A stretch of 21,748 nt of DNA from Candidatus Poribacteria bacterium (GTDB lineage: Bacteria; Poribacteria; DTPJ01; WJIO01), in assembly GCA_014730235.1 (NCBI GenBank), contig WJIO01000127.1, positions 1 through 21,748 of the forward strand. The letters run 5' to 3'. A program made the position numbers and the translations under genes. Numbering within the stretch: the stretch's first letter is position 1; the number at the start of each line of letters is the position of its first letter. Under the pieces are notes generated by a model, which saw only the letters and a list, made by a program, of their open reading frames with translations, had not been told where the DNA came from and ran no database searches. Shown here piece after piece: positions 405 to 16,002 of this stretch.

Positions 405-1109
405 TTAATATTGATTTTTAATAGAACCCCAGGTAGTTGAAATCTTTTCCAAGGGTTCTACAGCAATATTACCTTCCTGTTCTTCCCTCTCGTCATCCTC
501 AGGCAGACGGACATTGGCTCCGCCTTCATTGGCAGCAAGGTTATTTGTTATAAAGAGGCAATCCAGCATTGTGGCATCTTCCCGAGTCCAGATTTTGAGA
601 ATACTTTCACCTTTTTCAAGCTCCCACTCTCGGTCAAATGTTCCACCATCCAGCCAGTGATTAATCCTGTCCCAGTGCCATGTTCCCCCACCAGCAACAC
701 CCCAACGGAATTCTACGTTATCTGTTTGTTGTGGATTTTCTTCAGGATCAGCAGGCATCCATGTTACCCAGAAGGAATCACTGTTACCATCCCAGGCGAT
801 GACCCTCCCCCATATTGCATAGGTGTCATCTTGCGGTATATCTACCTTAAATTCCATGAAACCACTGCCCCCACCACCGGTTACAGGTGGGCCAGGAGCC
901 CAGACATATTTGCCGCCTGATGGCTCATCCGTTTCAACGCCTCCTGCGTCTTTTGCATCAATAGGTAATGCGATAACCATAGGTTTCTGGATTTTGCTGG
1001 CAAGTTCGGCTTCTAATGCGATCTCTACATCCTCAGCAGCTACAATAAAGCTGACACATAAAATAAAAAACATTAAGAAAGATATAATAAGAGTTATGAA
1101 TTTCTGCAT
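405..1109 (-). CDS. secreted carbohydrate-binding-like protein with C-terminal WGxIK tag (paralogue A)
   Basis: ATG 1109 is preferred over the in-frame GTG at 1118 because GGAGG lies 8 nt before the ATG and overlaps the GTG. Residues 1-25 are a signal peptide (MQKFITLI... VSFIVAA|ED). The single ~150-residue domain has PGPPVTGGGGSGFMEF, YAIWGRVIAWDGNSDSFWV, WHWDRINHWLDGG and REDATMLDCLFIT. This order (Gly-rich turn, YxIWGRV...NSDSFWV, WxW, REDxTMLD) resembles beta-sandwich carbohydrate-binding modules such as the GH115 C-terminal/CBM6-35 type, so a glycan ligand outside the cell is inferred. An acidic linker (EDDEREEQEG) leads to the terminal tag AVEPLEKISTTWGSIK, three residues (NQY) before the stop. 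It is a tandem paralogue of the gene at 1173-1850. No catalytic motif is visible; it is probably binding or structural. Confidence 0.8.
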   Translation of the reverse strand: MQKFITLIISFLMFFILCVSFIVAAEDVEIALEAELASKIQKPMVIALPIDAKDAGGVETDEPSGGKYVWAPGPPVTGGGGSGFMEFKVDIPQDDTYAIWGRVIAWDGNSDSFWVTWMPADPEENPQQTDNVEFRWGVAGGGTWHWDRINHWLDGGTFDREWELEKGESILKIWTREDATMLDCLFITNNLAANEGGANVRLPEDDEREEQEGNIAVEPLEKISTTWGSIKNQY

Positions 1110-1129
1110 ATTTAACACCTCCGAAATTG

Positions 1130-1160
1130 TATATCAAGTCGCGTAACGCGACTTGATATA
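1130..1160 (-). terminator. perfect 14-bp stem-loop between the two paralogous secreted-protein genes
   Basis: Arms 1130-1143 (TATATCAAGTCGCG) and 1147-1160 (CGCGACTTGATATA) are perfectly complementary with a 3-nt loop. The hairpin starts 12 nt after the stop of the upstream gene (1173) and ends about 8 nt before the GGAGG of the downstream gene. It has no U-tract. It could terminate, attenuate or stabilise the intercistronic mRNA, or tune translation of the second gene. Confidence 0.5.
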
Positions 1161-1172
1161 ATAGCTTTATAA

Positions 1173-1850
1173 CTATTTGTTAGCTCTAACCGAACCCCAT
1201 GTAACAGCCAACTTGTCACCCGGGGTAACTGACGTAGTCTGTAAATCCTGATCTGTAGGTGTTCTTGGCCCTACTTCGGCTTCGTCATCAGACAGATTGT
1301 CAGTTATAAATATGCAGTCAAGCATCGTGGCATCTTCTCTGGTGAAAACCGTTAGAATTGTGGGTCCGGCCGGGAGTTCCCATGACCTTTCAAAAGTACC
1401 TCCGTCCAGCCACTGGTTAATTTTATCCCAATGCCATGTTGCGCCACCGGCAACCCCCCATCTATATTCTGTATTTTCGGTTTCTTGAGGATTTTCAGCA
1501 GGATCAGCCGGTTCCCATGTTACCCAGAATGAATCGCTGTTACCATCCCAGGCCAGAACACGACCCCAAACAGCGTAATTTCCGGGGGTCGGAATATTTA
1601 CTGTAAATTGCACGTAACCTGAGCCGCCGCCACCTGTTGCAGGAGGACCGGGGACCCATACAAATTGTCCGCGAGATGGTTCATCAGGTTCTGCCCCTCC
1701 CTGGTCAACAGCATCAACAGGAACACCAATGACCATTGGCTCTTCAATTACTGCAAATTCAGCTTCCATGGCTATATCCACAGCCATAAGCATTCCTGAG
1801 AAGGATAGGACAAATAAAGCAGATACCAGCATTAATAAAATTTTCTTCAT
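1173..1850 (-). CDS. secreted carbohydrate-binding-like protein with C-terminal WGxIK tag (paralogue B)
   Basis: ATG 1850 has GGAGG 8 nt upstream. Residues 1-23 are a signal peptide (MKKILLMLVSALFVLSFSG..., cleavage near MLMA|VD). The core repeats the landmarks of its downstream neighbour: PGPPATGGGGSGYVQF, YAVWGRVLAWDGNSDSFWV, WHWDKINQWLDGG, REDATMLDCIFIT. Most core positions match by eye, so the pair arose by tandem duplication. Signal peptides and linkers differ. A short Pro/Thr/Asp linker leads to the tag SVTPGDKLAVTWGSVR, three residues (ANK) before the stop. The fold looks like a beta-sandwich carbohydrate-binding module; no enzyme signature is seen. It lies 84 nt downstream of the propeller gene with no hairpin between, so the two may share a transcript. 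Confidence 0.8.
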   Translation of the reverse strand: MKKILLMLVSALFVLSFSGMLMAVDIAMEAEFAVIEEPMVIGVPVDAVDQGGAEPDEPSRGQFVWVPGPPATGGGGSGYVQFTVNIPTPGNYAVWGRVLAWDGNSDSFWVTWEPADPAENPQETENTEYRWGVAGGATWHWDKINQWLDGGTFERSWELPAGPTILTVFTREDATMLDCIFITDNLSDDEAEVGPRTPTDQDLQTTSVTPGDKLAVTWGSVRANK

Positions 1851-1934
1851 TTCTTAATCCTCCCATAGTAAAAAAACACAGTATCAGATAAACTAAATTG
1901 CGATATATACTTAAATCATCACCTCCCTGTAATT

Positions 1935-2891
1935 TTACGGTAAGGGTTTTATTTTAACTTCACTCCATTTAGAGTTAGTTTTATTATATTCAACATCAGT
2001 AAAAACTGATGAAACGGGACACCATTTAGGTTGTACATACCAGGCATCCGAATCTGTGATAATTTTCTTATCAGAACCATCAGATTTCATTATGGCAATA
2101 ACCCAGTTACCGTTTAATTCATGTTGATATGCTATCATAGAATCATCAGGCGACCAGGATGGAACTGCATCATCCGCTCCTTGGTCTTTTGTCAGGTTTA
2201 TATCTTCTCCACCTGTAGATGGCATTACAAATATCTCCATATCTCCTTGTCTCATGGATGTATATGCTATTCTCTTACCATCTGATGACCATGCAGGATA
2301 TGAATCCAAGCCGGGGTTATCTGTTAATCGGGTCTGATCTTCCCCTTCATGATTCATTGTATAGATTTCCCAGTTACCGTCGCGTTTTGATGAAAAAGCT
2401 ATAATTTTACCGTCAGGAGACCAGGCCGGGGTTTCTTCATCTGCCGCTGTATTAGTTAGATTTTTTTGTCCTTGTCCATTAACCATCATGATATATATCT
2501 CAAAGTTTCCGTCCCTGTTGGTGTTAAAGGCTATTTTATCACCACTTGGAGACCAACATGGGGCTTTATCCAAAGAAGGATCATAAGTAAGTCTGGTCTG
2601 GTTTTTTCCATCAGAATCCATAATATATATTTCGTTATTTCTGTCCCGGTTGGAAAAAAACACAATCCTCCTGCCATCAGGGGACCAAAAAGGATAATAA
2701 TCAGCCATTTTGCTTCGGGTGATGTTAAAAGGAATTCCATTTTCCGCATTTAAAAGGTAGATTTCCCAATCACCATTAAAGTTAGATGAGAAAGCCAGAT
2801 TTAATCCTGATATTTCTTGAGAATAAACTGTGTTTATACTAAAATAGATAAGGACTGAGAGAAAAAGCCCTGAATAAGTTGAAAACCTCAT
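1935..2891 (-). CDS. secreted six-bladed PD40/TolB-like beta-propeller protein
   Basis: A 318-residue protein with a signal peptide (residues 1-24, cleavage near VYS|QE) and about six PD40-type blades. Each blade has the pattern (P)xWSPDG(R/K)xIxF, SxRDGNxEIYxM, DGxxxTRLT. Good examples are FWSPDGRRIVFFSNRDRNNE and AWSPDGKIIAFSSKRDGNWE. This repeat is shared with TolB and DPP-IV-like propellers and usually mediates protein or ligand binding. No tol/pal genes and no C-terminal peptidase domain are present, so true TolB is unlikely. The end, VEYNKTNSKWSEVK, followed by IKPLP, looks like a degraded version of the neighbours' C-terminal tag. There is no good Shine-Dalgarno before ATG 2891, so the start is slightly uncertain. 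Confidence 0.8.
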   Translation of the reverse strand: MRFSTYSGLFLSVLIYFSINTVYSQEISGLNLAFSSNFNGDWEIYLLNAENGIPFNITRSKMADYYPFWSPDGRRIVFFSNRDRNNEIYIMDSDGKNQTRLTYDPSLDKAPCWSPSGDKIAFNTNRDGNFEIYIMMVNGQGQKNLTNTAADEETPAWSPDGKIIAFSSKRDGNWEIYTMNHEGEDQTRLTDNPGLDSYPAWSSDGKRIAYTSMRQGDMEIFVMPSTGGEDINLTKDQGADDAVPSWSPDDSMIAYQHELNGNWVIAIMKSDGSDKKIITDSDAWYVQPKWCPVSSVFTDVEYNKTNSKWSEVKIKPLP

Positions 2892-2940
2892 ATCGAAAAG
2901 AAAATAATAATGAGAGAACGAAGCTACAGTTAATACTTCT

Positions 2941-3081
2941 GGTTCTTCCGGCTTTAGTGTGGCTATAATTGGAAATTCTCTCAGCTTGTCATTCCTGCTT
3001 CAAGCTTTTTAAAAAAGCTTGAAGCAGGAATGACAGCATAAAGAAGTTTCTTATCTTTATCACACTGAACCCGAAAGAGTT
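2941..3081. mobile_element. MITE copy 1 (141 bp) with 8-bp target duplication
   Basis: Imperfect ~21-bp terminal inverted repeats lie at 2941-2961 (inner part TTCCGGCTTTAGTGTG) and 3061-3081 (CACACTGAACCCGAAAG). Identical 8-bp direct repeats ATACTTCT flank it at 2933-2940 and 3082-3089, as expected of target-site duplication. The centre is an almost perfect 24-bp palindrome (arms 2987-3010 and 3012-3035) built on TCATTCCTGC/GCAGGAATGA. It has no coding capacity. Both flanks of the core match copy 2 at 4272-4391. It must be mobilised in trans; no transposase is in the window. Confidence 0.8.
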
Positions 3082-3089
3082 ATACTTCT

Positions 3090-3402
3090 TTGAGCCTATT
3101 CTACAATACTGCTAGTAAAGAAGTCAAGTATTTTTGACTCAATCACAATTTTTAATTCTAGCGTAAATCGAATTTGGCGAATTGGCAAAAGTCTGTGAAA
3201 TCTTACTGGGCTTCAACTCGACAGTCTGCCAATCCTTTGTTAAATTCCTGAAATATGTAAAATAAAAAAACCTGGGATAAAATATAATTTCATTGATCTT
3301 ATAATTAAAAGTTGGTAAAATACTTAACAAGTAGTAACGGTCTGTCAAAATATATTTAATTAAATTACTTTATTGGTCTGATGAATAAGGAGGATCATGA
3401 AT
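3090..3402. other. intergenic stretch without a gene; leader of the LamG gene
   Basis: AT-rich sequence between MITE copy 1 and the LamG gene. A 69-codon open frame on the minus strand (3139-3348) has no ribosome binding site and low-complexity composition, so it is not called. A partial inverted repeat ATTGGCA/TGCCAAT occurs at 3181-3187 and 3227-3233. The only convincing signal is AAGGAGG at 3387-3393, the ribosome binding site of the next gene. No clear -35/-10 pair was found. Confidence 0.4.
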
Positions 3403-4176
3403 ATGCACAAAAGTCTAATAATTTTACTGGTTTTATCATTTATTTTTGTGTGTGAAGGTATGTCAAAAGCTGATATTGTTCAAAATGGTTTGATCGTCTA
3501 TTATCCTATGGACGAAGGAACTATTGACGGAGGCACTGTCGAGGATTTTATCGGTGAGAATGATGGAACAATAATCGGAGGTGTGGAAGAGGTCGAGGGA
3601 AGATTTGGTCAGGCTTTGCAGTTTGATGGCTCAAGTGGAAAAGTGGATATACCCGGTACTGATGACCTTATGTTTAACGGTATAGAGGAATTCACTGCTT
3701 CTGCCTGGGTTTACAGAACAGGTTCTGGTGGTGGTTGCTGCGGGCCCATCATTGCCCAGCGAGACCTCAGTGGTTGGGCCTTAAGGTATGACAACAGGAA
3801 CGTCGGTACTGAGGCGGAACTCATTATTTCTCCCGGCTGGGTTGGTGATGACGCGGGTTTTGGTGTTGAGATTCCCGAAGAGGAATGGCACTATATAACA
3901 GGGGTTCTACTCGATGGTAATATATACATGTATTTCGACGGTGAATTAGCCGCTGAAACAGCCTTTGGGCCAGGATCAGTCGGAACTAACGGTGGCACTG
4001 GTACCTCTCTTGGCGGCGCTTCAGATGGATATTTTGATGGAATCATTGACGAAGCCCTTATATATAACCGGGGTCTGTCTGCTGCTGAAGTTAAACAAAA
4101 CTATGAATCCACCATATTTTTTGCTGTTAAAAGTGTCGGCAAACTAACTACCTGCTGGGGAGAGATTAAGAAATAG
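3403..4176 (+). CDS. secreted LamG (concanavalin A-like) protein with C-terminal WGxIK tag
   Basis: Two ATGs are close together. AAGGAGG (3387-3393) is only 3 nt from ATG 3397 but 9 nt from ATG 3403, so the latter is preferred. Residues 1-24 form a signal peptide (MHKSLIILLVLSFIFVC..., cleavage near SKA|DI). The mature protein is one Laminin_G_3-type domain: LIVYYPMDEG, FIGENDGTIIGG, FGQALQFDGSSGKVDIPG, FTASAWVYRTG, EEWHYITGVLLDGNIYMYFD, YFDGIIDEALIYNRGLSAAE. Such domains bind carbohydrate or protein ligands outside the cell; no catalytic residues are seen. The end carries the tag AVKSVGKLTTCWGEIK plus one Lys before the stop. An unusual GGGCCGP turn follows the AWVYR strand. The gene stands alone between two MITE copies. 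Confidence 0.85.
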   Translation: MHKSLIILLVLSFIFVCEGMSKADIVQNGLIVYYPMDEGTIDGGTVEDFIGENDGTIIGGVEEVEGRFGQALQFDGSSGKVDIPGTDDLMFNGIEEFTASAWVYRTGSGGGCCGPIIAQRDLSGWALRYDNRNVGTEAELIISPGWVGDDAGFGVEIPEEEWHYITGVLLDGNIYMYFDGELAAETAFGPGSVGTNGGTGTSLGGASDGYFDGIIDEALIYNRGLSAAEVKQNYESTIFFAVKSVGKLTTCWGEIKK

Positions 4177-4188
4177 GTTTAATATAAA

Positions 4189-4227
4189 ATGTAGATTGGG
4201 TTTCGCAGATTCAAACCCAATCTACAT
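4189..4227 (+). terminator. perfect 15-bp stem-loop after the LamG gene
   Basis: Arms 4189-4203 (ATGTAGATTGGGTTT) and 4213-4227 (AAACCCAATCTACAT) pair perfectly around a 9-nt loop, starting 12 nt after the stop codon. AAATTGAG follows rather than a U-run. It is probably a terminator or 3'-end stabiliser, of the same type as those after the other tag genes. Confidence 0.55.
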
Positions 4228-4271
4228 AAATTGAGTCTTGTTTCAGGATTAGCAAATTTCTTAAGATAAAT

Positions 4272-4391
4272 GTCTTTTCCGTGTTTAGTGTGATTATAAT
4301 TGAAAATTCTCTCAGCTTGTTATTCCTGCGAATGCAGGAATGACAGCATAAATAAATTTCTTATCTTTATCGCACTAAATCCGGAAGAGCC
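4272..4391. mobile_element. MITE copy 2 (120 bp) with 8-bp target duplication, next to scpA
   Basis: Imperfect 21-bp inverted ends lie at 4272-4292 (inner part TTTAGTGTG) and 4371-4391 (CGCACTAAATCCGGAAGAG). Perfect 8-bp direct repeats AGATAAAT flank it at 4264-4271 and 4392-4399. The inner hairpin ATTCCTGC/GCAGGAAT (4322-4329, 4334-4341) and both flanks of the core match copy 1; the centre is shorter. TATAAT at 4295-4300 points toward scpA. The right-hand target repeat ends only 5 nt before the scpA start codon, so the insertion lies in the scpA leader. Confidence 0.8.
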
Positions 4392-4404
4392 AGATAAATA
4401 AGCC

Positions 4405-5112
4405 ATGTATGAAGTTAAACTAAATGTCTTTCAAGGTCCTTTAGACCTTCTTCTGTATCTGATTAAAAAAAACGAAGTGGATATTTATGATATCCCCATA
4501 GCCCAAATAGCTGAACAGTATGTAGAATACATCAGCCTTATGAAAATGCTTGATCTTGATATTGCCAGCGAATTTTTGGTTATGGCAGCTACTTTGCTTC
4601 ATATGAAATCCGAGGCAATGCTTCCCGCTGGATCAACAGATGATAATAACGAAGAGATGATGACCAGGGAAGAGCTTGTAAGACAACTGATCGAATATAG
4701 GAAATTCAAAGACGCAGCGTCAGTTCTGGCTGAATGGGAAAAAAAGCAGAATAAACTCTTCCCCAGATTATACATGGAAGAAAATTATGAAGAACTGGAT
4801 TTAAAGGAATTCAAGGTTAATGCGACTTTGTTTGACTTACTCTCAGCTTTTAGAACTATCTTGCAGGCTATGCCGGATGATCGCTTCAGGGAACTCCGAG
4901 AAGAGACAGTAACAGTCCAGCAAAAAATGGATGAGATTCTAAGTAAACTCAAGGACGAGGGTCGTGTGGAATTTTCATCTTTCTTTTCAATGATGTATAG
5001 CAGAATTGAAATCGTAGTATGTTTCCTGGCTATTCTGGAATTAATAAGAACAAAAGACATTATCGCCAGACAATCCCAGATTTTTGGTCAAATATGGTTA
5101 TATAAGCGTTAA
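4405..5112 (+). CDS. scpA: segregation and condensation protein A
   Basis: ScpA is the kleisin subunit that bridges SMC heads and binds the ScpB dimer in the condensin-like Smc-ScpAB complex, acting in chromosome compaction and segregation. The N-terminus is a textbook ScpA opening: YEVKLNVFQGPLDLLLYLI, then NEVDIYDIPIAQIAEQYVEY and the LDLDIASEFLVMAATLLHMK helix (residues ~50-75). The C-terminal winged-helix end is present (VEFSSFF...EIVVCFLAILELI). The length of 235 aa is near normal. It is followed by scpB after 23 nt, the usual order. No good Shine-Dalgarno precedes ATG 4405: the immediate leader is the MITE target duplication, and the nearest purine run (GGAAGAG, 4383-4389) is too far away. 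Transcription or translation may have been altered by the insertion. Confidence 0.95.
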   Translation: MYEVKLNVFQGPLDLLLYLIKKNEVDIYDIPIAQIAEQYVEYISLMKMLDLDIASEFLVMAATLLHMKSEAMLPAGSTDDNNEEMMTREELVRQLIEYRKFKDAASVLAEWEKKQNKLFPRLYMEENYEELDLKEFKVNATLFDLLSAFRTILQAMPDDRFRELREETVTVQQKMDEILSKLKDEGRVEFSSFFSMMYSRIEIVVCFLAILELIRTKDIIARQSQIFGQIWLYKR

Positions 5113-5135
5113 AAGTTATTATTGGATTTTACAAA

Positions 5136-5711
5136 ATGCAACAATCAGAAGCAAAATCAGTAATCGAGGCGGTTATATTCGCCGCTGATAGACCCGTAAC
5201 AGCGGGACAACTGGTCAGCATAATGGTTGACATGGATAACGAAAGCATTATCCAGCTAATCAATGAACTAAAACAGGATTATGACAGAGAAGGCAGGAGT
5301 TTCCAGATCGTTGAGATCGCCAACGGTTATCAGATAAGAACCCGGGATAAATACGCCCCCTGGATCAAAAGTTTTTATACAACAGAAATATCATCCCGGC
5401 TTTCAATATCCGCCCTGGAAGCACTGGCGATTATAGCTTACAGACAACCGGCAACCAGAGCAGAAGTAGAGGAAATCCGGGGTGTAAACAGCGACAGTGT
5501 GCTCCGCACCTTACAGGAAAGGAATCTCATTGAGGTTATAGGCAGAAAACAGGCCCCGGGAAAACCCATGATCTACGGCACAACTGAGGATTTTCTCATG
5601 CACTTCGGCCTGAAAGACCTTTCTGAACTGCCTTCTATAGATGAAATTGAAAGAATGTTAGGAACTCCCAAGGAGGAGATGAGATCTGAGATTAGAGAAA
5701 TACTTGGCTGA
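5136..5711 (+). CDS. scpB: segregation and condensation protein B
   Basis: ScpB forms a winged-helix dimer that binds ScpA in the Smc-ScpAB chromosome-organising complex. Family landmarks are clear: the AVIFAADRPVTAGQL start, YDREGRSFQIVEIANGYQI, then SISALEALAIIAYRQPATRA, EEIRGVNSDSVLRTLQERNL and the GRKQAPGKPMIYGTTEDFL end. The length of 191 aa is typical. It starts 23 nt after scpA with only a weak purine motif (GGA, about 9 nt upstream), suggesting translational linkage. Its last codons carry an AGGAGG (5671-5676) that serves the overlapping pseudouridine synthase gene. Confidence 0.95.
   Translation: MQQSEAKSVIEAVIFAADRPVTAGQLVSIMVDMDNESIIQLINELKQDYDREGRSFQIVEIANGYQIRTRDKYAPWIKSFYTTEISSRLSISALEALAIIAYRQPATRAEVEEIRGVNSDSVLRTLQERNLIEVIGRKQAPGKPMIYGTTEDFLMHFGLKDLSELPSIDEIERMLGTPKEEMRSEIREILG
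5671..5676 (+). promoter_or_regulatory. Shine-Dalgarno inside scpB that supports a CTG start for rluB
   Basis: AGGAGG lies within the end of scpB, exactly 9 nt before CTG 5686. It is 27 nt before TTG 5704, the first conventional start codon in the rluB frame, and that frame is closed by TGA at 5680-5682. The CTG is the only plausible start that this strong site can serve. Confidence 0.65.
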
Positions 5712-6423
5712 TGCGGGAGTTTGTTCCCGGCGTCAAGCAAAAAGAATGGTAGCGAATGGAAAAGTTACAGTAAATGGAAAAGTGGCTGATGTAGGTGGAC
5801 TGCACATTGATCCAAAAAATGATGACATAAAAGTAAATGGAGAACTTATAGAATATGATGGCGGAAAAGTTTATTTGATGCTGAATAAACTCCCCGGATA
5901 CCTTACGACAACTTCTGATCCCTACGACCGGGATATTGTTATGGATTTGATTTCCACAAAACGCAAACGGGTTTATCCTGTTGGGCGATTGGATATGGAT
6001 ACAGAAGGTTTACTTATTTTCACAAATGACGGCGCATTATCCTATCGCCTGACCCATCCCAAACATCACGTAAATAAAGTCTATCTGGCCTGGGTTAAAG
6101 GTAAACCCGATGAAAAAAAGCTAAATAATCTTAGAAAAGGTATTAAACTCAAAGATGGTATTACATTGCCTGCCCAGGTAGAAAGACTTGAAGACAAGAA
6201 AAGCGATGATAATACCAGCCTCATAAAGCTGACTATATATGAAGGACGAAAGCGTCAGATCAAAAGAATGTTCTCTGCTATAGGACATAAGGTTTTAAGG
6301 CTAAGACGAATTCAGATGGGCCCCATATCCCTGGGAAAATTACCTCCCGGAGAATTTCGACACCTCACCAAGCAGGAAGTAAAACTCCTAAAAAAATCTA
6401 CGGGTGATAAAAACGAAGAATGA
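5686..6423 (+). CDS. rluB: 23S rRNA pseudouridine synthase, RsuA/RluB family, probable CTG start
   Basis: RluB-type enzymes isomerise a uridine in the peptidyl-transferase region of 23S rRNA. The protein has an N-terminal S4 RNA-binding domain (ADAGVCSRRQAKRMVANGKV) and the catalytic domain with PVGRLDMDTEGLLIFTNDG, whose GRLD Asp is the nucleophile, then NKVYLAWVKG and EGRKRQIKRMF. S4 domains of this family start close to RLQKYLA.AGVASRR. Here RLEKYL sits upstream of TTG 5704, directly after a CTG at 5686 with AGGAGG 9 nt before it. I therefore take CTG 5686 (about 245 aa); a TTG start would remove the first S4 helix. It overlaps the end of scpB and shares an ATGA overlap with the next gene, as expected in an operon. 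An RsuA/RluE-type specificity cannot be excluded. Confidence 0.85.
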   Translation: MRLEKYLADAGVCSRRQAKRMVANGKVTVNGKVADVGGLHIDPKNDDIKVNGELIEYDGGKVYLMLNKLPGYLTTTSDPYDRDIVMDLISTKRKRVYPVGRLDMDTEGLLIFTNDGALSYRLTHPKHHVNKVYLAWVKGKPDEKKLNNLRKGIKLKDGITLPAQVERLEDKKSDDNTSLIKLTIYEGRKRQIKRMFSAIGHKVLRLRRIQMGPISLGKLPPGEFRHLTKQEVKLLKKSTGDKNEE

Positions 6424-7445
6424 AAATAGGTGGTAAAGAATACCGTATAAAAACAGGGATTATTATCTTCCTCGCTATTAGCACTATAAGCGCCATGATC
6501 TTGTTTTATCGCGGTTTTGACAGTGATACATGGCAGAGTTTAAAGCAGATCAAACCCATTTATGGATTCCTTGCAGCAGTTACCATGCTGTTATATTTTG
6601 TTTTTAACGGCTTAAGATTCCAGATATTAATAAAGGGTCTTGATGTTGATGTGAAGTTCTGGGATTCCTCCAGGGCTTTTATAGCTAATCTGTTTTTAGG
6701 TGCTGTTACACCTTTTCAGACAGGGGGAGGTCCTTTACAGATTTATATACTGAATAAGGCAGGAGTTCCCCTAGCGAAGGCCTTTTCCGGGTGTCTTATG
6801 GGAGCTATGCTGACTATATTCAGCCTGGTGGGATCGACAATAGTTATAATGGCTTTTAACCCCAATCTTGGGTTTAATTCCGGAAGTATTATGAAAGCTG
6901 TTTTCAGCACAGTATCTATAACCTTTGTAATTGCTTTAACGCTTTTCGTGTTAAGCTTAGTAAAGATGGATTTGCTGAAAAAAATAATTGCCAAAAGCCT
7001 GAATTTTATAACCAGAGGTAAGACATCTTTTACAGAAAAAGTTATGGGTGGTCTGGATCAATACAGCGAAAGTATGGCCATCTACAGAAAAGCTCGTAAA
7101 ATAACTATTTTATTTGCCGGTTTACTTACTTTTGGGACTATTGCGCTTCTATGTATAGAGGCTTCCGTTATTCTTGCGGGATTAAACGTTCAGCATAATG
7201 TGCCAGAAGTCTTTTTGACCCAGTTTGTTCTTAATTTTATCGTCTATTTTAGCCCAACACCCGGAGGTAGCGGGATAGCTGAACTCAGCAGCTATCATAT
7301 GATGGGGGATTTTGCCGAAGACCTGCTTGAAATATATATAATTGCATGGAGATTTTTCACTAACTTTCTTGGTGTTACCCTGGGTGGTTTAATTGTATTG
7401 GATTTACTCAGAAAAGAAGGGAAAAGGAAAGCTGTTAGCAATTAA
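6420..7445 (+). CDS. flippase-like integral membrane protein (LPG_synthase_TM/UPF0104 family)
   Basis: A 341-residue polytopic membrane protein of the lysylphosphatidylglycerol-synthase transmembrane-region/YbhN type. Family landmarks are NLFLGAVTPFQTGGGPLQIY (residues ~95-115), which contains the Gly-rich re-entrant segment, and YFSPTPGGSGIAELS near residue 280, followed by a last pair of membrane helices and a basic tail (RKEGKRK). About eight hydrophobic segments are visible. Relatives move lipid-linked intermediates across the membrane; the cargo here is unknown. The start overlaps the rluB stop (ATGA), so it is translationally coupled. The stop codon lies within the first bases of a palindromic repeat (7441-7590), which may have set the present C-terminus. 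Confidence 0.8.
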   Translation: MKIGGKEYRIKTGIIIFLAISTISAMILFYRGFDSDTWQSLKQIKPIYGFLAAVTMLLYFVFNGLRFQILIKGLDVDVKFWDSSRAFIANLFLGAVTPFQTGGGPLQIYILNKAGVPLAKAFSGCLMGAMLTIFSLVGSTIVIMAFNPNLGFNSGSIMKAVFSTVSITFVIALTLFVLSLVKMDLLKKIIAKSLNFITRGKTSFTEKVMGGLDQYSESMAIYRKARKITILFAGLLTFGTIALLCIEASVILAGLNVQHNVPEVFLTQFVLNFIVYFSPTPGGSGIAELSSYHMMGDFAEDLLEIYIIAWRFFTNFLGVTLGGLIVLDLLRKEGKRKAVSN

Positions 7446-7590
7446 TGTAATTTTTAAAAATTAATATCACTTGGTTGTCATTCATGCTTTTGCAGGAATT
7501 CAGTCTTTATGCAGATCTACTGGATTCCTGCTCTCGCAGGAATGACAACTAAATTATATCCATTTTTAACGATTACATAATTACATTAAT
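7441..7590. repeat. 150-bp palindromic repeat (MITE-like) overlapping the end of the flippase gene
   Basis: The ends are perfect inverted repeats: ATTAATGTAATT at 7441-7452 and AATTACATTAAT at 7579-7590. Inside lie GTTGTCATTCATGC and GCAGGAATGACAAC, plus the ATTCCTGC/GCAGGAAT hairpin core also found in both MITE copies. No matching target duplication lies directly outside. A 9-bp direct repeat TTAATATCA (7461-7469, 7586-7594) is present, of uncertain meaning. It has no coding capacity and may also act as a bidirectional stem-loop after the operon. Confidence 0.55.
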
Positions 7591-7601
7591 ATCATTATTT
7601 T

Positions 7602-7623
7602 CAGGAGATATACAGGAGATATA
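7602..7623 (+). promoter_or_regulatory. tandem duplicated ribosome binding site of the URO-D-like gene
   Basis: The 11-bp unit CAGGAGATATA occurs twice in direct tandem. The second AGGAG (7614-7618) is 6 nt from ATG 7625, the usual spacing; the first is 17 nt away. It probably arose by slippage or a small duplication and may raise initiation at the first gene of the operon. Confidence 0.6.
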
Positions 7624-7624
7624 T

Positions 7625-8632
7625 ATGAAACCCAGAGAAATTGTAACAAGGGCAATAGAATTTCGCAAACCTGAGCGATTACCGGTAAGTGGTTATAGTG
7701 GTGAAATTTCCGATGTTACAGGAGTTGGACGCAGGGATATAAAACCACCGGAAGCACAGGATGTTCCTAACATGGATCAATGGCTTTGCCTATGGGGTCA
7801 TACGGATATGCCCAACATGGGACAGGTAAAAGGTCATCCCCTGGAAGACCTTTCTGATATGAAAGATTTTCCCTGGCCCGATGGTAATGATCCCCGACGT
7901 TACGAGAATATGCCCGGGCAAATTGATGAGATTAAAAATGATCCTAACCGGCGGGATAAATTTGTTAGTTCCGGAATATTCATGATCCTCTGGGAACGTA
8001 TGCACAGCTTGCATGGATTTGAAAATTCCATGATGGATTTAATGGATAATACTCCTGAGATTAATAAACTGGCTGATAGGATTCTGCAATATGATATTGA
8101 AGTTGTAAGAAATACGCATAAATACTGCGGCGATAACATCCAGGCCATAAACTTCAGCGAGGACTGGGGAACGGAAGAAGACCTTCAGATTTCACCTGAA
8201 TTATGGAGGAAATTCTTTTTTCCAAGATATAAAAAGCTCTTTGATGTTATACATGAATGTGGCTATTATGTCTGGATGCACTCCTGTGGTAAAATAAACA
8301 AGGCAATCCCCGGTCTAATAGAAGCCGGTTGTGATGTCATTAATATGCAGCAACCTCGCACCAATGGCATAAAAGAAATCGGTCAGCAGTTTGCCGGTAA
8401 GATATGCTTTTTAAGTCTGTGTGATATTCAAAAAACACTACCAGAGGGAGACCGAAAGCAAATTGAAAAAGAGGCAGAAGAACTTTTATATAACTGGGGA
8501 ACACCTGAAGGGGGTTTCATACTGGGAGACTACGGTGATCACAGGGCTATAGGCGCAAAACCAGAGGATAAGCAGTTTATGCTTGATACTTTTAGACGCA
8601 TTGATCCATACAAAAATGGTTGGAAAATGTAA
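7625..8632 (+). CDS. uroporphyrinogen decarboxylase-like (URO-D superfamily) protein
   Basis: A TIM-barrel protein of the URO-D superfamily, which includes heme-pathway HemE and corrinoid-dependent methyltransferases such as MtaA and CmuA. Visible landmarks are the MKPREIVTRAIEFRKPERLP opening, FSEDWGTEEDLQISPELW near residue 180, and HSCGKINKAIPGLIEAGCD (residues ~219-237) followed by INMQQPR. The HSCG His-Cys pair matches the zinc-binding motif of the methyltransferase branch. The HemE N-terminal substrate motif is not evident, so heme synthesis is unlikely. It leads an operon with a Gfo/Idh/MocA oxidoreductase, a MoaD-like protein and a DUF6785-type membrane protein, which suggests catabolism of a methylated or sugar-like compound. 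No corrinoid-binding protein is encoded nearby, so methyl transfer is unproven. Confidence 0.85.
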   Translation: MKPREIVTRAIEFRKPERLPVSGYSGEISDVTGVGRRDIKPPEAQDVPNMDQWLCLWGHTDMPNMGQVKGHPLEDLSDMKDFPWPDGNDPRRYENMPGQIDEIKNDPNRRDKFVSSGIFMILWERMHSLHGFENSMMDLMDNTPEINKLADRILQYDIEVVRNTHKYCGDNIQAINFSEDWGTEEDLQISPELWRKFFFPRYKKLFDVIHECGYYVWMHSCGKINKAIPGLIEAGCDVINMQQPRTNGIKEIGQQFAGKICFLSLCDIQKTLPEGDRKQIEKEAEELLYNWGTPEGGFILGDYGDHRAIGAKPEDKQFMLDTFRRIDPYKNGWKM

Positions 8633-8657
8633 ATATAATAATATAGAGGTGGTTAGC

Positions 8658-9698
8658 ATGAAAAAATATCGCGTCGCAATAGTTGGTTTAGGACGAATGG
8701 CCAGCACCATTGATCAAGAGGTAGTTGATTATCCGGCAATAACTTTACCGTATTCCATAGCCGCATCGTGCCAGCAGATAGAAAAAGCAGAATTGGTAGC
8801 CGGTGCTGATATACTTCCTGAAAAGCTTAAAGCCTTTGGTGAACGCTGGGAGGTTAAAGCACTTTATGAAGATTATCTTGAAATGATTAAACAGGAAGAA
8901 CCTGACATGGTTGCTATATGCACCAAAGGGGAAATTCATGCAGAAATGGCCGTAAAAGTAGCAGAAACCGGCGTTCCCATGATGTATGTAGAAAAGGCCA
9001 TGGCCTGTTCCATGAAAGAAGCCGACGTGGTTCTGGAAGCCTGTCAAAACAATAACACCCTTTTCAACACAGGTGTTCTTCGTAGATTTGACAGCCGTTA
9101 CCACAAAGCCAAAGAGCTTATGGATGCAGGCGAGATCGGTCAGATTAAATCTATAATTCATTTCGGTTCTACAAACCTTATGCACGGTCATATTCACTCT
9201 ATTGACACTATAATGTATTTGCTTGGTGATCCGGTTGCTGAGAGTGTCTGGGGTGAGTTAAGGCCTCGAAGCCTGGAAATTAAAAACAACCGTCTTGACA
9301 AAGACCCATCGGCTATTTATCACATAGCTTTTGATAATGGCACAGAAGCCTGGACAATCCCTTCAGGTATGTGGGATTTTGAAATCTGGGGCACAGGAGG
9401 CAGCATAAGAGGTATGAATAACGGCATAGAATGGACGATTCGTAAAACTTATAAAATCAATGATAAACGAGCCATATTCCGGGAATCAACTTATCCGGAA
9501 TATAAAGCTTACAGCGCAACTGCTGCATGTCTGGAAGATTTAATCGAAGCTTATGAGCAGAAACGACCAACTCTTGGTAATGTGGAGGTAACCCATAGAG
9601 CCACTGAATTATGTCTGGCTATTGCTGAAAGCCATAGGACAGGAAAACGGGTGAATCTACCTCTGGATAATAAAGAGCTTTATGTATGGCATGTTTAA
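8658..9698 (+). CDS. Gfo/Idh/MocA family NAD(P)-dependent oxidoreductase
   Basis: The 346-residue frame starts at ATG 8658, preceded by GAGGTGG 5 nt upstream; an upstream in-frame ATG at 8583 lies inside the previous gene and is rejected. The N-terminal Rossmann fold has KKYRVAIVGLGRMAS (residues 2-16), an acidic ADIL turn, and VAICTKGEIHAEMAVKVAE. The family EKP motif appears as VEKAMACSMKEAD, with Ala in place of Pro. The C-terminal domain has FNTGVLRRFDSRYHKAKELM and HGHIHSIDTIMYLLGDP, where a catalytic His/Asp would lie. Relatives oxidise or epimerise sugars, inositols or glycosides; the substrate here is unknown. It lies 25 nt after the URO-D-like gene and 18 nt before the MoaD-like gene, so it is clearly in one operon. 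Confidence 0.85.
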   Translation: MKKYRVAIVGLGRMASTIDQEVVDYPAITLPYSIAASCQQIEKAELVAGADILPEKLKAFGERWEVKALYEDYLEMIKQEEPDMVAICTKGEIHAEMAVKVAETGVPMMYVEKAMACSMKEADVVLEACQNNNTLFNTGVLRRFDSRYHKAKELMDAGEIGQIKSIIHFGSTNLMHGHIHSIDTIMYLLGDPVAESVWGELRPRSLEIKNNRLDKDPSAIYHIAFDNGTEAWTIPSGMWDFEIWGTGGSIRGMNNGIEWTIRKTYKINDKRAIFRESTYPEYKAYSATAACLEDLIEAYEQKRPTLGNVEVTHRATELCLAIAESHRTGKRVNLPLDNKELYVWHV

Positions 9699-9716
9699 TT
9701 TTTGGGGATGATTTAT

Positions 9717-9956
9717 ATGAAAATAAAAGTGAAAATGTTTGCCAACCTTGCTAAATTGCTTCCACCTGGCTCTCAGAATAAACAGGCGGATTTGACTATA
9801 AAATCCGGAGCTAAAGTTCAGGATGTTCTCGATAAACTTAAAGTGCCGCCTAAACTTACCAATGTTTTTATGGTAAATGGCTCTCTGGTGGATAAGGAAA
9901 CTGAGTTGAAGGATGGTGATATTCTGAGCGTGTTTCCACCTGTGTCCGGCGGCTAA
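9717..9956 (+). CDS. MoaD/ThiS-like small sulfur-carrier protein
   Basis: A 79-residue beta-grasp protein ending in the diagnostic Gly-Gly (FPPVSGG), the C-terminus that is adenylated and thiocarboxylated in MoaD/ThiS carriers. Other landmarks are KIKVKMFANLAKLLP, SGAKVQDVLDKLKVP, FMVNGSLVDKETELKDGD and ILSVFPPVSGG. ATG 9717 is chosen over TTG 9702 and ATG 9708 because GGGG (9704-9707) lies 9 nt before it. No MoaE, MoeB, ThiF or ThiG gene is nearby. Its place between an oxidoreductase and a membrane protein is odd: it may serve a tungsten/molybdenum cofactor or sulfur-transfer need of the pathway, or supply a general carrier. Confidence 0.8.
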   Translation: MKIKVKMFANLAKLLPPGSQNKQADLTIKSGAKVQDVLDKLKVPPKLTNVFMVNGSLVDKETELKDGDILSVFPPVSGG

Positions 9957-9965
9957 TAAGATCAA

Positions 9966-11864
9966 ATGGCAAGCAAAGATTCGGATAATAAAGTTCATAT
10001 ACGGGCTATATTTCTTGGTATCTTGATGATGCCTATCCATTCATACTGGATATCCAAGATCGAAGCCATCGTATACAAGGGTGGTGGTGCTAGCACTTCA
10101 TCCCTTATATGGACATCAGTATATAACATGATGGTGCTGATGGTTATATTTCGGCTTATTGGAAAGCTTTGGCCGAAAATAAACCTGAGCAGGGCCGACT
10201 TGCTGGCTATTTTTGCCATGTGTAACATTGCCGCATGCGTGGCTGGTCACGATATGGTTCAGATACTTGTTCCCCAGATAGCATATCCGCAATGGTATGC
10301 TGCACCGGAAAACGAGTGGGAACAAACCCTCCTGCCGTATCTGCCTGATGCTGTAACTGTCAAAGACAAAACCACCCTTTCCGGTTATTTTGTAGGTGAT
10401 TCATCCCTCTATAACTCCCATATAATGCGTAAATGGCTGACACCATTTTTAATCTGGTCTGGATTTATATTTGTCCTTCTAGCTGTCGCTCTGGCCTTAA
10501 ATGTGATCGTCCAGAAAAAATGGACAGAGATTGACCGTTTAAGTTATCCTGTTATCCAGCTTCCCCTTCGTTTGTCAGCACCCACAAACACATTTTTCAA
10601 AAACAAGCTGGTCTGGGCTGGTGTGGGTACGGCGGGAGTTGTTCTAAATATTAACTACCTGCACCGGATATTTCCCGTAATACCCTATATAAGAACCAGC
10701 TATGAACTTGGTCAGTATTTTACCGAAAGTCCCTGGAATGCTGTGGGATGGCTGCCTTTTAACGTTATATTTAACTATATAGGGTTGGGATTTTTTGTGC
10801 CTATGGATATTCTCTTTTCATGCTGGTTCTTTTTACTTTTATTCAAAGCCCAGATTGTCTTTGGTCGGATGGTAGGATTCCGAAGTTTTCCCAATTTCCC
10901 CTATTCATATGAACAATCCTCCGGAGGTTATTTAGCCCTGGGGATAATTGCTATATGGATAACAAGAAAGCACCTGAAAGGCGTATTTGCCATGATCTTC
11001 GGTAAATTCAAAACTGAGGATTCAGGTGAAGTCAATGGCTATCGGATAGCCATTGCTACAATAATAATTGGAATTTTCCTGCTGATTATTTTTAGCAATT
11101 ATCTCGGTATGTCCATCTGGGTAGCAGCGTCTTTCTTTGGCATGTATTACCTGATACTCCTGGCCATTGCCCGGATGAGGGCAGAGATCGGCACACCTCT
11201 TCATGACCTGCATTTTGCAGGCCCCAGCACCATTCTCATAAACATGTTTGGCACCCGCAGGATGAACCAGTCCACTCTTGTTGGCATGACTCAATTATGG
11301 TTTATAGACAGGGCTTATCGCTCCAATCCCATGCCCCACCAACTGGAAGCCCTGAAAATTTCCGAAAGGATAGGTACAAAAGGCAACGGTTTTGTTTACG
11401 CCCTTATAGTAGCTAGCTTGCTGGCCGGGCCCATGGCCATATGGGCGTTATTGAATCACAGCTATGAAGTAGGAGTCCAAAATGCCGCTCCGGTTAATAT
11501 ATACTTCGGATTTGAACCCTGGAACCGGTTTCAGTCGTGGATAAATAACCTGACAACCACTAACACCCCATCAATGATATTCACCGGATTTGGATTTGTT
11601 ACTACAATACTGCTGATGGTAGGTCGTATGCGTTTCCTGTGGTGGCCCTTTCATCCTGTCGGATATGCTATATCAGGAAGCTGGCAAATGGTATGGGGTT
11701 GGGGTTCGTTTTTTATAGCATGGCTGATTAAGCTGATAATATTAAAATATTCAGGTATAAAGGGTTTCCGCAAAGCGACAGGCTATTTCCTGGGTTTACT
11801 TCTGGGAGATGTATTTTTCGGTGGGACATGGACTATGCTGGGTATTGCCTTCGATTTATGGTGA
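9966..11864 (+). CDS. large polytopic membrane protein, DUF6785/DUF6784 type (possible transporter), paralogue 1
   Basis: A 632-residue protein with about a dozen hydrophobic segments, starting IRAIFLGILMMPIHSYW. Landmarks shared with the protein at 16003-17913 include PENEW (~118), YPVIQLPL (~195), FTESPWNAVGWLP (~257), GLGFFVPMDILFSCWFF, FPNFPYSYEQSSGGYLA, the cytoplasmic-loop-like RMRAEIGTPLHDLHFAG (~403-419) and MRFLWWPFHPVGYAISGSW. I recognise this as the DUF6785/DUF6784 group, whose function is not known to me. It begins 9 nt after the MoaD-like gene without a clear Shine-Dalgarno, so it is probably translationally coupled. Its position at the end of a catabolic operon suggests uptake of the substrate; that is inference. 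Oligopeptide-transporter-like folds are an alternative comparison. Confidence 0.75.
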   Translation: MASKDSDNKVHIRAIFLGILMMPIHSYWISKIEAIVYKGGGASTSSLIWTSVYNMMVLMVIFRLIGKLWPKINLSRADLLAIFAMCNIAACVAGHDMVQILVPQIAYPQWYAAPENEWEQTLLPYLPDAVTVKDKTTLSGYFVGDSSLYNSHIMRKWLTPFLIWSGFIFVLLAVALALNVIVQKKWTEIDRLSYPVIQLPLRLSAPTNTFFKNKLVWAGVGTAGVVLNINYLHRIFPVIPYIRTSYELGQYFTESPWNAVGWLPFNVIFNYIGLGFFVPMDILFSCWFFLLLFKAQIVFGRMVGFRSFPNFPYSYEQSSGGYLALGIIAIWITRKHLKGVFAMIFGKFKTEDSGEVNGYRIAIATIIIGIFLLIIFSNYLGMSIWVAASFFGMYYLILLAIARMRAEIGTPLHDLHFAGPSTILINMFGTRRMNQSTLVGMTQLWFIDRAYRSNPMPHQLEALKISERIGTKGNGFVYALIVASLLAGPMAIWALLNHSYEVGVQNAAPVNIYFGFEPWNRFQSWINNLTTTNTPSMIFTGFGFVTTILLMVGRMRFLWWPFHPVGYAISGSWQMVWGWGSFFIAWLIKLIILKYSGIKGFRKATGYFLGLLLGDVFFGGTWTMLGIAFDLW

Positions 11865-11946
11865 TGAATATAAAATAATTCTGATTAAGTCTAGGGCTTT
11901 TTAATTTTCCATAACTCAAACAAATTCTTTAGCTAACCTGATTTTC

Positions 11947-11969
11947 CCTCTGTATTAGAGGTGTTTTTT
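11947..11969 (+). terminator. candidate intrinsic terminator of the URO-D/DUF6785 operon
   Basis: A short stem CCTCT/AGAGG (11947-11951, 11957-11961) with a 5-nt loop is followed by TGTTTTTT (11962-11969), 82 nt after the stop codon at 11864. The stem is short but the U-tract is good. Confidence 0.45.
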
Positions 11970-12000
11970 CAATGTCTGCAATAACCTTTACAGACATTGA
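11969..12000. other. 10-bp stem-loop in the convergent intergenic region
   Basis: Arms 11969-11978 (TCAATGTCTG) and 11991-12000 (CAGACATTGA) pair perfectly around a 12-nt loop. It lies between the operon terminator and the stem-loop of the opposing gene. It could back up termination on either strand; nothing more can be said. Confidence 0.35.
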
Positions 12001-12017
12001 GATAAAGCTAATCTGAA

Positions 12018-12068
12018 TTATCTGGCTCATTTAGACTTCGGCTAAAAGAGTAATCATGAGCCAGATAA
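12018..12068 (-). terminator. perfect 13-bp stem-loop with nested TTCG loop after the tag gene at 12079
   Basis: Arms 12018-12030 (TTATCTGGCTCAT) and 12056-12068 (ATGAGCCAGATAA) are perfectly complementary. The 25-nt loop holds a second small hairpin closed by C(TTCG)G on the plus strand (12031-12045). On the minus strand it begins 10 nt after the stop codon at 12079 and has no U-tract. Same design and spacing as after the other tag genes. Confidence 0.5.
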
Positions 12069-12078
12069 ATATCGATGA

Positions 12079-12801
12079 TTATTTCTTTATCTGTCCCCAG
12101 ATAGCGGCTAACTTTCGATCAGCATTTACAGCGGTAACATCTTCAAGATCCTGAACTGTTTCTGCCACTCTCATATTATCGTAATAGCTAACGCCAGATG
12201 TGATACCCATCATACCAATAGGCCCACTTTCAAACATATCATTTTCAGCCTCTACAACTGGGTCTAGTTCCTCAAATGGAGTATCATCATCTCGCTCCTT
12301 TAGATAAACCTGATGAGTATTTCCGTTAATTATCAGACGATGACTATACCAGACATTATTTTCGTTGGGATACTCGCCTGAAGTTATTTCAGCCCATGCG
12401 CCGTTATCGTAAGTGTATATATTTACATTCACAAATCCAGTACGACGGCTGGCATGGAAAAACGCTTCGCCGCTTTCAACTCTATATACAGTTCCTACGA
12501 AATTGTCATTTTCCCACATCCAGTCAAAATCCCATACATAATCAGTCCAGTTTTCCCTTCCTGCAACCTGGGGTAGATATATTCCTATTGCTGTTGTCTT
12601 TGCAACTTTGTTCTGCGCATCTGTCGGATCTATCTCGATAGTAATTATTGAGTCACCGGCTGTGGATTCAATCTTATCCCATCTTAATGGCTCGGAACCA
12701 ATAACGTCATCTTCAAAATCGTCAACAAAGAGCATTTCACCAATTGCTGTGCTACAAAAGACAAACATCGCCAAAATCATCATAGCTTTAAGCTTTAACA
12801 T
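12079..12801 (-). CDS. secreted jelly-roll (concanavalin A-like) protein with C-terminal WGxIK tag (paralogue B)
   Basis: ATG 12801 is preceded by AAGGAG with 8 nt spacing. Residues 1-20 are a signal peptide (MLKLKAMMILAMFVFCSTAIG|E). The mature protein opens LFVDDFEDDVIGSEPLRWD and has YVWDFDWMWENDNFVGTVYR, NENNVWYSHRLIINGN, KERDDDTPFEELDPVVEAE and GVSYYDNMRV. The FxDDFE...G..P..W start and the YYDNM end are typical of lectin-like jelly rolls of the LamG/DUF1080 kind, which bind or cleave sugars; no catalytic residues can be named. The linker leads to the tag AVNADRKLAAIWGQIK plus one Lys before the stop. It is a tandem paralogue of the gene upstream (12896-13624), 94 nt away, with a solitary MITE end in the gap. 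Confidence 0.8.
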   Translation of the reverse strand: MLKLKAMMILAMFVFCSTAIGEMLFVDDFEDDVIGSEPLRWDKIESTAGDSIITIEIDPTDAQNKVAKTTAIGIYLPQVAGRENWTDYVWDFDWMWENDNFVGTVYRVESGEAFFHASRRTGFVNVNIYTYDNGAWAEITSGEYPNENNVWYSHRLIINGNTHQVYLKERDDDTPFEELDPVVEAENDMFESGPIGMMGITSGVSYYDNMRVAETVQDLEDVTAVNADRKLAAIWGQIKK

Positions 12802-12830
12802 TTGTAAATCTCCTTATTTTCAATTATTAC

Positions 12831-12851
12831 CACGCTAAACCCGGAAGAACC
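12831..12851. repeat. solitary MITE terminal repeat upstream of the jelly-roll gene
   Basis: A 21-bp stretch (core CTAAACCCGGAAGAACC) matches the right-hand terminal repeat of the two MITEs at 2941-3081 and 4272-4391. No partner end or core lies within 150 bp on either side. It sits 30 bp before the start of the gene at 12801, so it is either a remnant of an imperfectly lost element or a sequence co-opted in the leader. Confidence 0.6.
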
Positions 12852-12895
12852 AGATTTTATAAAAATATTTTCCTTTACCCTCCTTCCAGTTACTG

Positions 12896-13624
12896 CTATT
12901 GGTTTCTGATTTCACCCCAGGTTATAGCTAATTTTCCACGCCGGTCTACGGATTTAAGTTTATCTATATCCTGAAGATTCTCAACCAACACCATATTATC
13001 AAAATAGCTGACCCCAGCGGTGATACCCATCATACCCACAGGGCCATTCTTAAATGTATCATCGTTAGCTTCAACGACGGGATCCAGATCTTCAAAAGGA
13101 GTATCATCATCCCGTTCTTTGAGGTATATCTCATGCTTATCGCCCATCATAACCAAACGATGGCTATACCAGACGTTATTTTCATTTGGATATACACCGG
13201 TGGCTACGTTAGCCCAGGCCCCGGCGTTGCGTGTGTAGATGTGTATCTCAGATGCCCCTTGACGCCTGCTACCGTGAAAATGTGCTTCTGCGCCTTCCAC
13301 TCTATATACAGTTCCCACAAAGTCGTCATTCTCCCACATCCAGTCAAATTCCCAGATGTAGTCACTCCAGTTATCCCTTCCATCAGCAATTGGGATGTAA
13401 AGGCCAATTCCCACAGTCATGACCACCTTATTGTTTGGATCATCAGGGCTTTCTTCTACAGTAATCGGGGAATCACCGCCAGCAAAGGCAATATGTTCCC
13501 ACTTTGATGGCTCTTCACCCAAATTGTCGCCCTCAAAATCATCCACAAAAAGCACTTCAGCATTTACCAAACCACATGATAAAAGAAGAACTAAAATCAT
13601 CAAAAATTCTTTGGTTTTTAACAT
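12896..13624 (-). CDS. secreted jelly-roll (concanavalin A-like) protein with C-terminal WGxIK tag (paralogue A)
   Basis: ATG 13624 has GGAGG 9 nt upstream. Residues 1-22 form a signal peptide (MLKTKEFLMILVLLLSCGLVNA|E). The body follows its tandem paralogue almost motif for motif: LFVDDFEGDNLGEEPSKWE, YIWEFDWMWENDDFVGTVYR, NENNVWYSHRLVMMGDK, KERDDDTPFEDLDPVVEA and GVSYFDNMVL. This is a lectin-like jelly roll and probably binds an extracellular glycan; no active site is recognisable. The end is the tag SVDRRGKLAITWGEIR plus NQ. It begins 43 nt after the glycyl radical enzyme gene, with no hairpin after its stop, so it belongs to the operon running from the regulator at 18764 to the stem-loop at 12018. 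Confidence 0.8.
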   Translation of the reverse strand: MLKTKEFLMILVLLLSCGLVNAEVLFVDDFEGDNLGEEPSKWEHIAFAGGDSPITVEESPDDPNNKVVMTVGIGLYIPIADGRDNWSDYIWEFDWMWENDDFVGTVYRVEGAEAHFHGSRRQGASEIHIYTRNAGAWANVATGVYPNENNVWYSHRLVMMGDKHEIYLKERDDDTPFEDLDPVVEANDDTFKNGPVGMMGITAGVSYFDNMVLVENLQDIDKLKSVDRRGKLAITWGEIRNQ

Positions 13625-15974: not shown

Positions 15975-16002
15975 TCTAATACCTCCTGTTAAGCGGAAGT
16001 TT

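Follow-up and report, generated by a model that had tools for sequence, protein, structure and literature searches.

A shared C-terminal tag on secreted proteins of one locus

The DNA analysed here, 21,748 nt of contig WJIO01000127.1 (assembly GCA_014730235.1; hereafter the window), lies within a 5.53 Mb, 451-contig genome of Candidatus Poribacteria and encodes a set of exported proteins that share a short C-terminal tag, the WGxIK tag. Five of these had been named in an original prediction, and both their genes and the tag coordinates were correct: each of the five has [AP]-V-x4-K-L-[AT]-T-T-W-[GAS]-x-[IVL]-K at its end, with no variation in V, K, W or G.

Two of the five, encoded on the minus strand, are CBM35/CBM6-like. 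Paralogue 1 (1173-1850), assigned from matches to CBM35/CBM6 structures, carries the tag VTPGDKLAVTWGSVR (1185-1229), followed by ANK and the stop codon; in its AlphaFold model the tag forms a short helix that lies apart from the body. The fold of paralogue 2 (405-1109) is taken from that of paralogue 1, and its tag, located with the refined profile described below, is VEPLEKISTTWGSIK (417-461; V at -10 to K at +4 relative to the Trp), then NQY and the stop. On the plus strand, a LamG protein (3403-4176; PF13385 in Pfam, with an AlphaFold model) ends in VKSVGKLTTCWGEIK (4126-4170), for which the predicted local distance difference test score (pLDDT) is below 50, then K and the stop. The last two, again on the minus strand, are jelly-roll/ConA-like paralogues of each other: 12079-12801, with the tag VNADRKLAAIWGQIK (12085-12129) followed by K and the stop, and 12896-13624, with VDRRGKLAITWGEIR (12905-12949) followed by NQ and the stop. 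The five proteins are thus two paralogous pairs, each 58-59% identical, and one LamG protein, and they count as three independent bodies; three distinct bodies had indeed been described, and the pairing is our correction to that description.

A sixth copy had been missed. The minus-strand gene at 1935-2891 encodes an exported TolB-like PD40 beta-propeller, identified through Pfam and its homologues, which ends in VEYNKTNSKWSEVK (1953-1994), then IKPLP and the stop. By itself this end scores 1.9 bits with the tag profile. Most of the approximately 50 homologues of the propeller, however, keep a C-terminal W-G-x-[IL]-[KR] (for example LPIEPSALQIQQWGKIRAP), and in one of them the tag, SVNPSGKYRMTWGKIK, scores 11.8 bits; we take the end of the window protein as a diverged sixth copy. 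We also note that the jelly-roll pair, together with a pyruvate-formate-lyase-like gene (13668-16046), is flanked by two large, related-looking, multi-spanning membrane proteins (9966-11864, plus strand, and 16003-17913, minus strand).

The tag is confined to the C-terminus and found mainly on predicted exported proteins of many folds

A strict DNA pattern search for the tag gave only four matches, the pattern being too strict. A first protein profile, built from the five window ends, gave 139 matches in the same genome at E ≤ 10, and 93 stretches around such matches (1.14 Mb including the window; 1018 open reading frames, or ORFs, from crude ORF calling) made up an own-genome sample that is, by its selection, biased to tag-bearing contigs. 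The profile was then rebuilt from 100 C-terminal ends. With W as position 0, the consensus reads [APS] at -11, V at -10 (97/100), P or A at -8, G, D, N or S at -6, K at -5 (93/100), L at -4, [ATS] at -3, mostly T at -2 and -1, W itself (100/100), [GAS] at +1, [IVL] at +3, and K or R at +4 (100/100).

When a tag was called at 8 bits or more, with the match ending no more than 12 residues from the C-terminus, at least 128 of the 1018 ORFs in the own-genome sample were tagged. The distance beyond the last Lys was 0-3 residues in 121 of 128 tags and 9 at most. In this sample no mid-protein match scored above 5.0 bits, and reversed proteins gave 3.1 bits at best. As an unbiased sample, we used evenly spaced 20 kb stretches of a closed genome (G045; 0.8 Mb, 665 ORFs), in which 15 ORFs were tagged, all at the C-terminus, corresponding by extrapolation to approximately 100 per genome. 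Chance is excluded as the source of the shared ends. Matches had been expected at the extreme C-terminus, and it is there that they lie in the own genome, in G045 and among homologues of the CBM-like proteins, with no mid-protein or cytoplasmic matches of note.

The tagged proteins are also predicted to be exported. By a simple hydropathy rule, rather than a trained predictor, 123 of 126 full-length tagged proteins in the own-genome sample have a signal-peptide-like hydrophobic N-terminus, as had been claimed for the window proteins, compared with 244 of 690 untagged ORFs (a number that includes membrane proteins). None of the 126 has a later transmembrane helix, and a lipobox-like motif is present in 2 of 124. 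In the G045 sample, tags were found on 13 of 143 exported-like, 1 of 396 cytosolic-like and 1 of 98 membrane-like ORFs, and the single cytosolic-like ORF is short and probably lacks its true start.

The tagged bodies, compared without their termini, form 38 clusters; the largest holds 70 members (LamG) and the next 11, and many are small. This bears out the expectation of many folds per genome. Pfam identifies LamG, PD40 and Kelch propellers, an alpha/beta-hydrolase esterase, cohesin, F5/8 type C, CBM9, DUF4960 and Sad1/UNC-like bodies, as well as a peptidase below threshold, and many tagged bodies have no Pfam match. The cohesin-domain protein (L095:3992-5725) carries the WGxIK tag itself and is a possible scaffold part.

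Selection acts on a peptide outside the fold

Codons at the invariant tag residues are as varied as in the gene bodies, with six codons used for Leu and four for Val, and this ordinary codon use indicates that selection acts on the peptide and not on a DNA element. Many copies per genome are what a repeated element at gene 3' ends would also produce, but with so broad a codon spread, and with reading frame and distance to the stop constrained, we give this origin of the shared ends almost no credence. It is scarcely more credible, and still highly improbable, that the bodies simply end with the tag as their final structural element, or that it is the relic of one LamG ancestor. LamG paralogues do make up 70 of 132 own-genome carriers, and since this is over half, some tag copies have plainly been inherited together with their bodies; yet the 38 clusters comprise unrelated folds, propellers and the alpha/beta hydrolase among them. 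Homologues of the CBM-like proteins keep the tag in 98 of 100 cases, the remaining two being one truncated and one split ORF, and the linker between CBM body and tag varies by 8 residues. In the AlphaFold model of the CBM-like protein (mean pLDDT 86), the linker at residues 207-216 falls below 50 and the short helix at 218-223 is of low confidence, near 58; in that of the LamG protein, residues 242-257 are below 50. In both models, the tag is thus predicted to sit outside the body fold, and not as the last strand of a common domain. Conservation along the tag has a periodicity peaking near 80-90 degrees per residue, which is not strand-like, over what is a very short stretch.

The tag is specific to Poribacteria

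Tag matches were found in 84 of 84 Poribacteria genomes, at 25 to at least 110 per genome (the upper values are lower bounds), and in 1 of 302 genomes from outside the phylum. This one genome (G153; 1.7 Mb, 2-3 matches) has three C-terminal tags (L216, L217 and L218), one of them on a lamin-tail-domain protein; since no tag was found in any of its 56 phylum-mates, contamination or gene transfer is likely. The CBM-like pair was found at 58 loci, all of them from Candidatus (or uncultured) Poribacteria. By these sequence counts the tag is restricted to one phylum, in line with the lineage restriction that had been anticipated. Its C-terminal position, the export signals, the variety of folds and the confinement to one phylum together leave almost no doubt that we are dealing with a true modular signal at the C-terminus; the role originally proposed for it, in sorting, anchoring or assembly, is inferred.

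Type IX secretion parts and the interchange of tag and CTD

Co-occurring secretion genes had been expected as well, and outer-membrane parts of a type IX secretion system (T9SS) were found, with a link to the tag that is circumstantial. T9SS C-terminal domains (CTDs; TIGR04183) occur in 84 of 84 Poribacteria genomes, at 9-60 each. The PorV family is over its cut-off in all 84, with 8-24 copies each, and one poribacterial member matches PorV in PDB entry 6h3i at 1.5e-17. C25 peptidase domains are encoded in 83 of the 84 genomes, and so is a SprA-like ORF, mostly of approximately 2,150-2,300 aa, with collinear TIGR04189 stretches. The one SprA-like ORF that was tested matched TIGR04189 at 2.2e-36 over four stretches, below the cut-off, and Pfam SprA_N over its cut-off; a phmmer search of this ORF against the PDB gave no match. 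In the genome of the window itself, the SprA-like ORF lies at C368:48014-51811, a PorV gene at C164:1027-1860, and C25 domains on contigs C261 and C365. Kamke et al., working with single-cell genomes in 2014, reported CTDs on poribacterial WD40-type proteins and no structural T9SS genes (PMC3909097). Unlike in that report, Poribacteria appear from their sequences to encode T9SS outer-membrane parts.

To compare the two kinds of C-terminus, we pooled 2,543 ORFs and called CTDs with a local profile of poribacterial CTDs. Tags were present on 317 ORFs, and 66 matched the CTD profile, approximately 20 of them clearly; most of the other matches belong to one orthologous set, that of a large gene whose end has diverged. 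Tag and CTD were together on none of the 317 tagged proteins, and the median lengths are 252 aa for tagged and 942 aa for CTD proteins. Homologous bodies, on the other hand, can bear either end. At one locus (L036), an esterase (789-1895) ends in the tag and the product of a neighbouring gene (2467-5403) in a CTD whose score exceeds the curated cut-off, and the two esterase domains are 37% identical over 317 aa (7e-57). At another (L069), a LamG-plus-cohesin protein (8394-11264) has a CTD that scores 122 bits with the local profile and 21.2 bits with TIGR04183 (cut-off 23), and its matches include tagged LamG proteins (down to 1e-21) as well as a tagged cohesin protein (4e-13). Such esterase, LamG and cohesin bodies with either end would be expected if tag and CTD serve related destinations.

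A PorV gene is located a few kb from the tag in most loci of the CBM-like pair, and most of the 51 PorV-like ORFs in the sample are found there. This proximity counts as a single event, because the loci represent one conserved block in which PorV, encoded on the opposite strand, has a large CTD-like gene of its own as neighbour. The gene order of the block in Poribacteria (window 405-2891; L128-L185) is TolB-like propeller, CBM, CBM and a protein of approximately 375 aa, with the PorV-family gene and the large CTD-like protein next, on the opposite strand.

A proposed sorting route and its rivals

We propose, with a probability of roughly 0.6, that the tag sorts proteins to the cell surface or the outside after Sec export. 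An N-terminal signal peptide would take proteins of many folds through the Sec pathway across the inner membrane, and folding in the periplasm would leave the last ~15 residues accessible at the end of a flexible linker, as the models support. A periplasmic or outer-membrane receptor could then bind the conserved V....KL...W[GAS].IK face, possibly as a short helix, and route the protein onward. Recognition probably does not involve the free carboxyl group, given the varying number of residues (0-3, at most 9) that follow the last Lys. It is conceivable, at somewhat less than even odds, that the tag constitutes a second C-terminal sorting code beside the T9SS CTD, with its own receptor (a PorV-family barrel, for example), through which on the order of a hundred small proteins, lectin-like ones and enzymes, would reach the surface. 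The most likely route, and one that we treat as a lead, would be the phylum's T9SS-like system, one of whose many PorV-family barrels might take the tag as a minimal alternative to the ~80-residue CTD of large proteins in the same genomes. That the T9SS, through a PorV-family receptor, handles the tag is suggested by co-occurrence and body swapping, and we consider it possible but doubtful.

Several observations weigh against these proposals. Only one genome has a SprA match that reaches the curated cut-off, and T9SS parts would serve the CTD proteins in any case, so that their presence is no proof that they handle the tag. No obvious correlation of tag numbers with those of CTDs or PorV was seen among the few genomes with full counts (G016, for instance, has 25 tags and 23 PorV). 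The G045 sample contains 130 exported-like ORFs that have no tag, and the tag is thus not a general requirement for export. The receptor, the translocation step and the final location are all putative. Finally, secretins are present in 82 of 84 genomes, making a type II-like route possible. A sorting signal read by such a secretin-based system, or by a wholly new outer-membrane system, would be a sub-case of sorting, and it therefore overlaps with the general sorting claim and not with the T9SS route. The absence of proteins with both tag and CTD, and their different size classes, are as expected for two systems, but a common destination is suggested by the bodies that tagged and CTD proteins share, and type II substrates usually have no common linear signal; we rate this possibility as rather unlikely. 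The main rival to sorting is an assembly tag, a peptide by which secreted proteins are attached to a scaffold or surface layer, much as a dockerin binds a cohesin, and which does not direct their transport. The flexible linker and exposed short peptide, the many lectin-like, CBM and propeller bodies, the tagged cohesin-domain protein and the lack of any sign of a membrane anchor are all compatible with docking. No scaffold partner was found, however, the cohesin protein bears the tag and does not obviously bind it, and the exchange with the T9SS CTD on homologous bodies is what a sorting signal would show; we regard assembly as unlikely.

For an uncultured phylum known chiefly for its sponge symbionts, the tag makes much of the exported proteome easy to recognise from sequence. 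Should sorting prove to be its role, few residues would suffice, to an unusual degree, to address a protein to the surface after Sec, and the peptide would be a useful display tag. The gene content also suggests that T9SS-like export is present in Poribacteria, where structural genes had been reported missing (PMC3909097), and one may ask why related bodies within a single phylum have retained C-terminal tags of two kinds.

Comparison with known C-terminal signals

The tag has the appearance of a hitherto undescribed address label that directs proteins once they have been exported. Tag peptides had no match in NCBIfam or the PDB and one weak match in Pfam (E 0.12), and searches of open-access papers found no description of a WGxIK motif, which agrees with the original prediction, in which it was not recognised from any described system. 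Like the PEP-CTERM/exosortase signal, it is a short common C-terminal sequence on many secreted proteins, found through genome-wide counting. The likeness to PEP-CTERM ends there, as had been stated: tag ends have neither a hydrophobic helix nor a basic cluster (the best 15-mer in the last 40 aa has a median mean hydropathy of 0.37 and a maximum of 1.83), and exosortase was found in 0 copies in the own genome and in 3 of 84 genomes of the phylum. The exosortases of these three (G002, G014 and G016) have E-values as low as 1.8e-66, and the remaining 81 genomes differ in encoding none. A sortase signal was likewise rejected, since the LPxTG pattern, already said to be missing, is not in the tag ends listed and there is no hydrophobic segment. 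Dockerins resemble the tag in being short C-terminal modules on a linker that connect secreted glycan-active proteins; they are, however, approximately 60-70 residues long, with calcium loops, and no Pfam dockerin match was obtained on tag peptides or tagged proteins.

The GlyGly-CTERM signal contains a transmembrane helix, which the WGxIK tag does not. In its many-to-one relation to variable bodies, the tag is nevertheless comparable to the GlyGly-CTERM/rhombosortase system (PMC3237569). TIGR04183 gave no match on tag peptides or on the window proteins, and the T9SS CTD that it describes differs from the tag in size and form: the model has 72 positions and the CTD, with the pattern PNPFNPETWIPY... 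here, is approximately 80 residues long, whereas the tag, far shorter as originally pointed out, has approximately 15 residues and is unfolded in the models. The two are alike in that both are C-terminal, are carried by Sec-exported proteins with many folds, number in the tens per genome, and occur in the same genomes.

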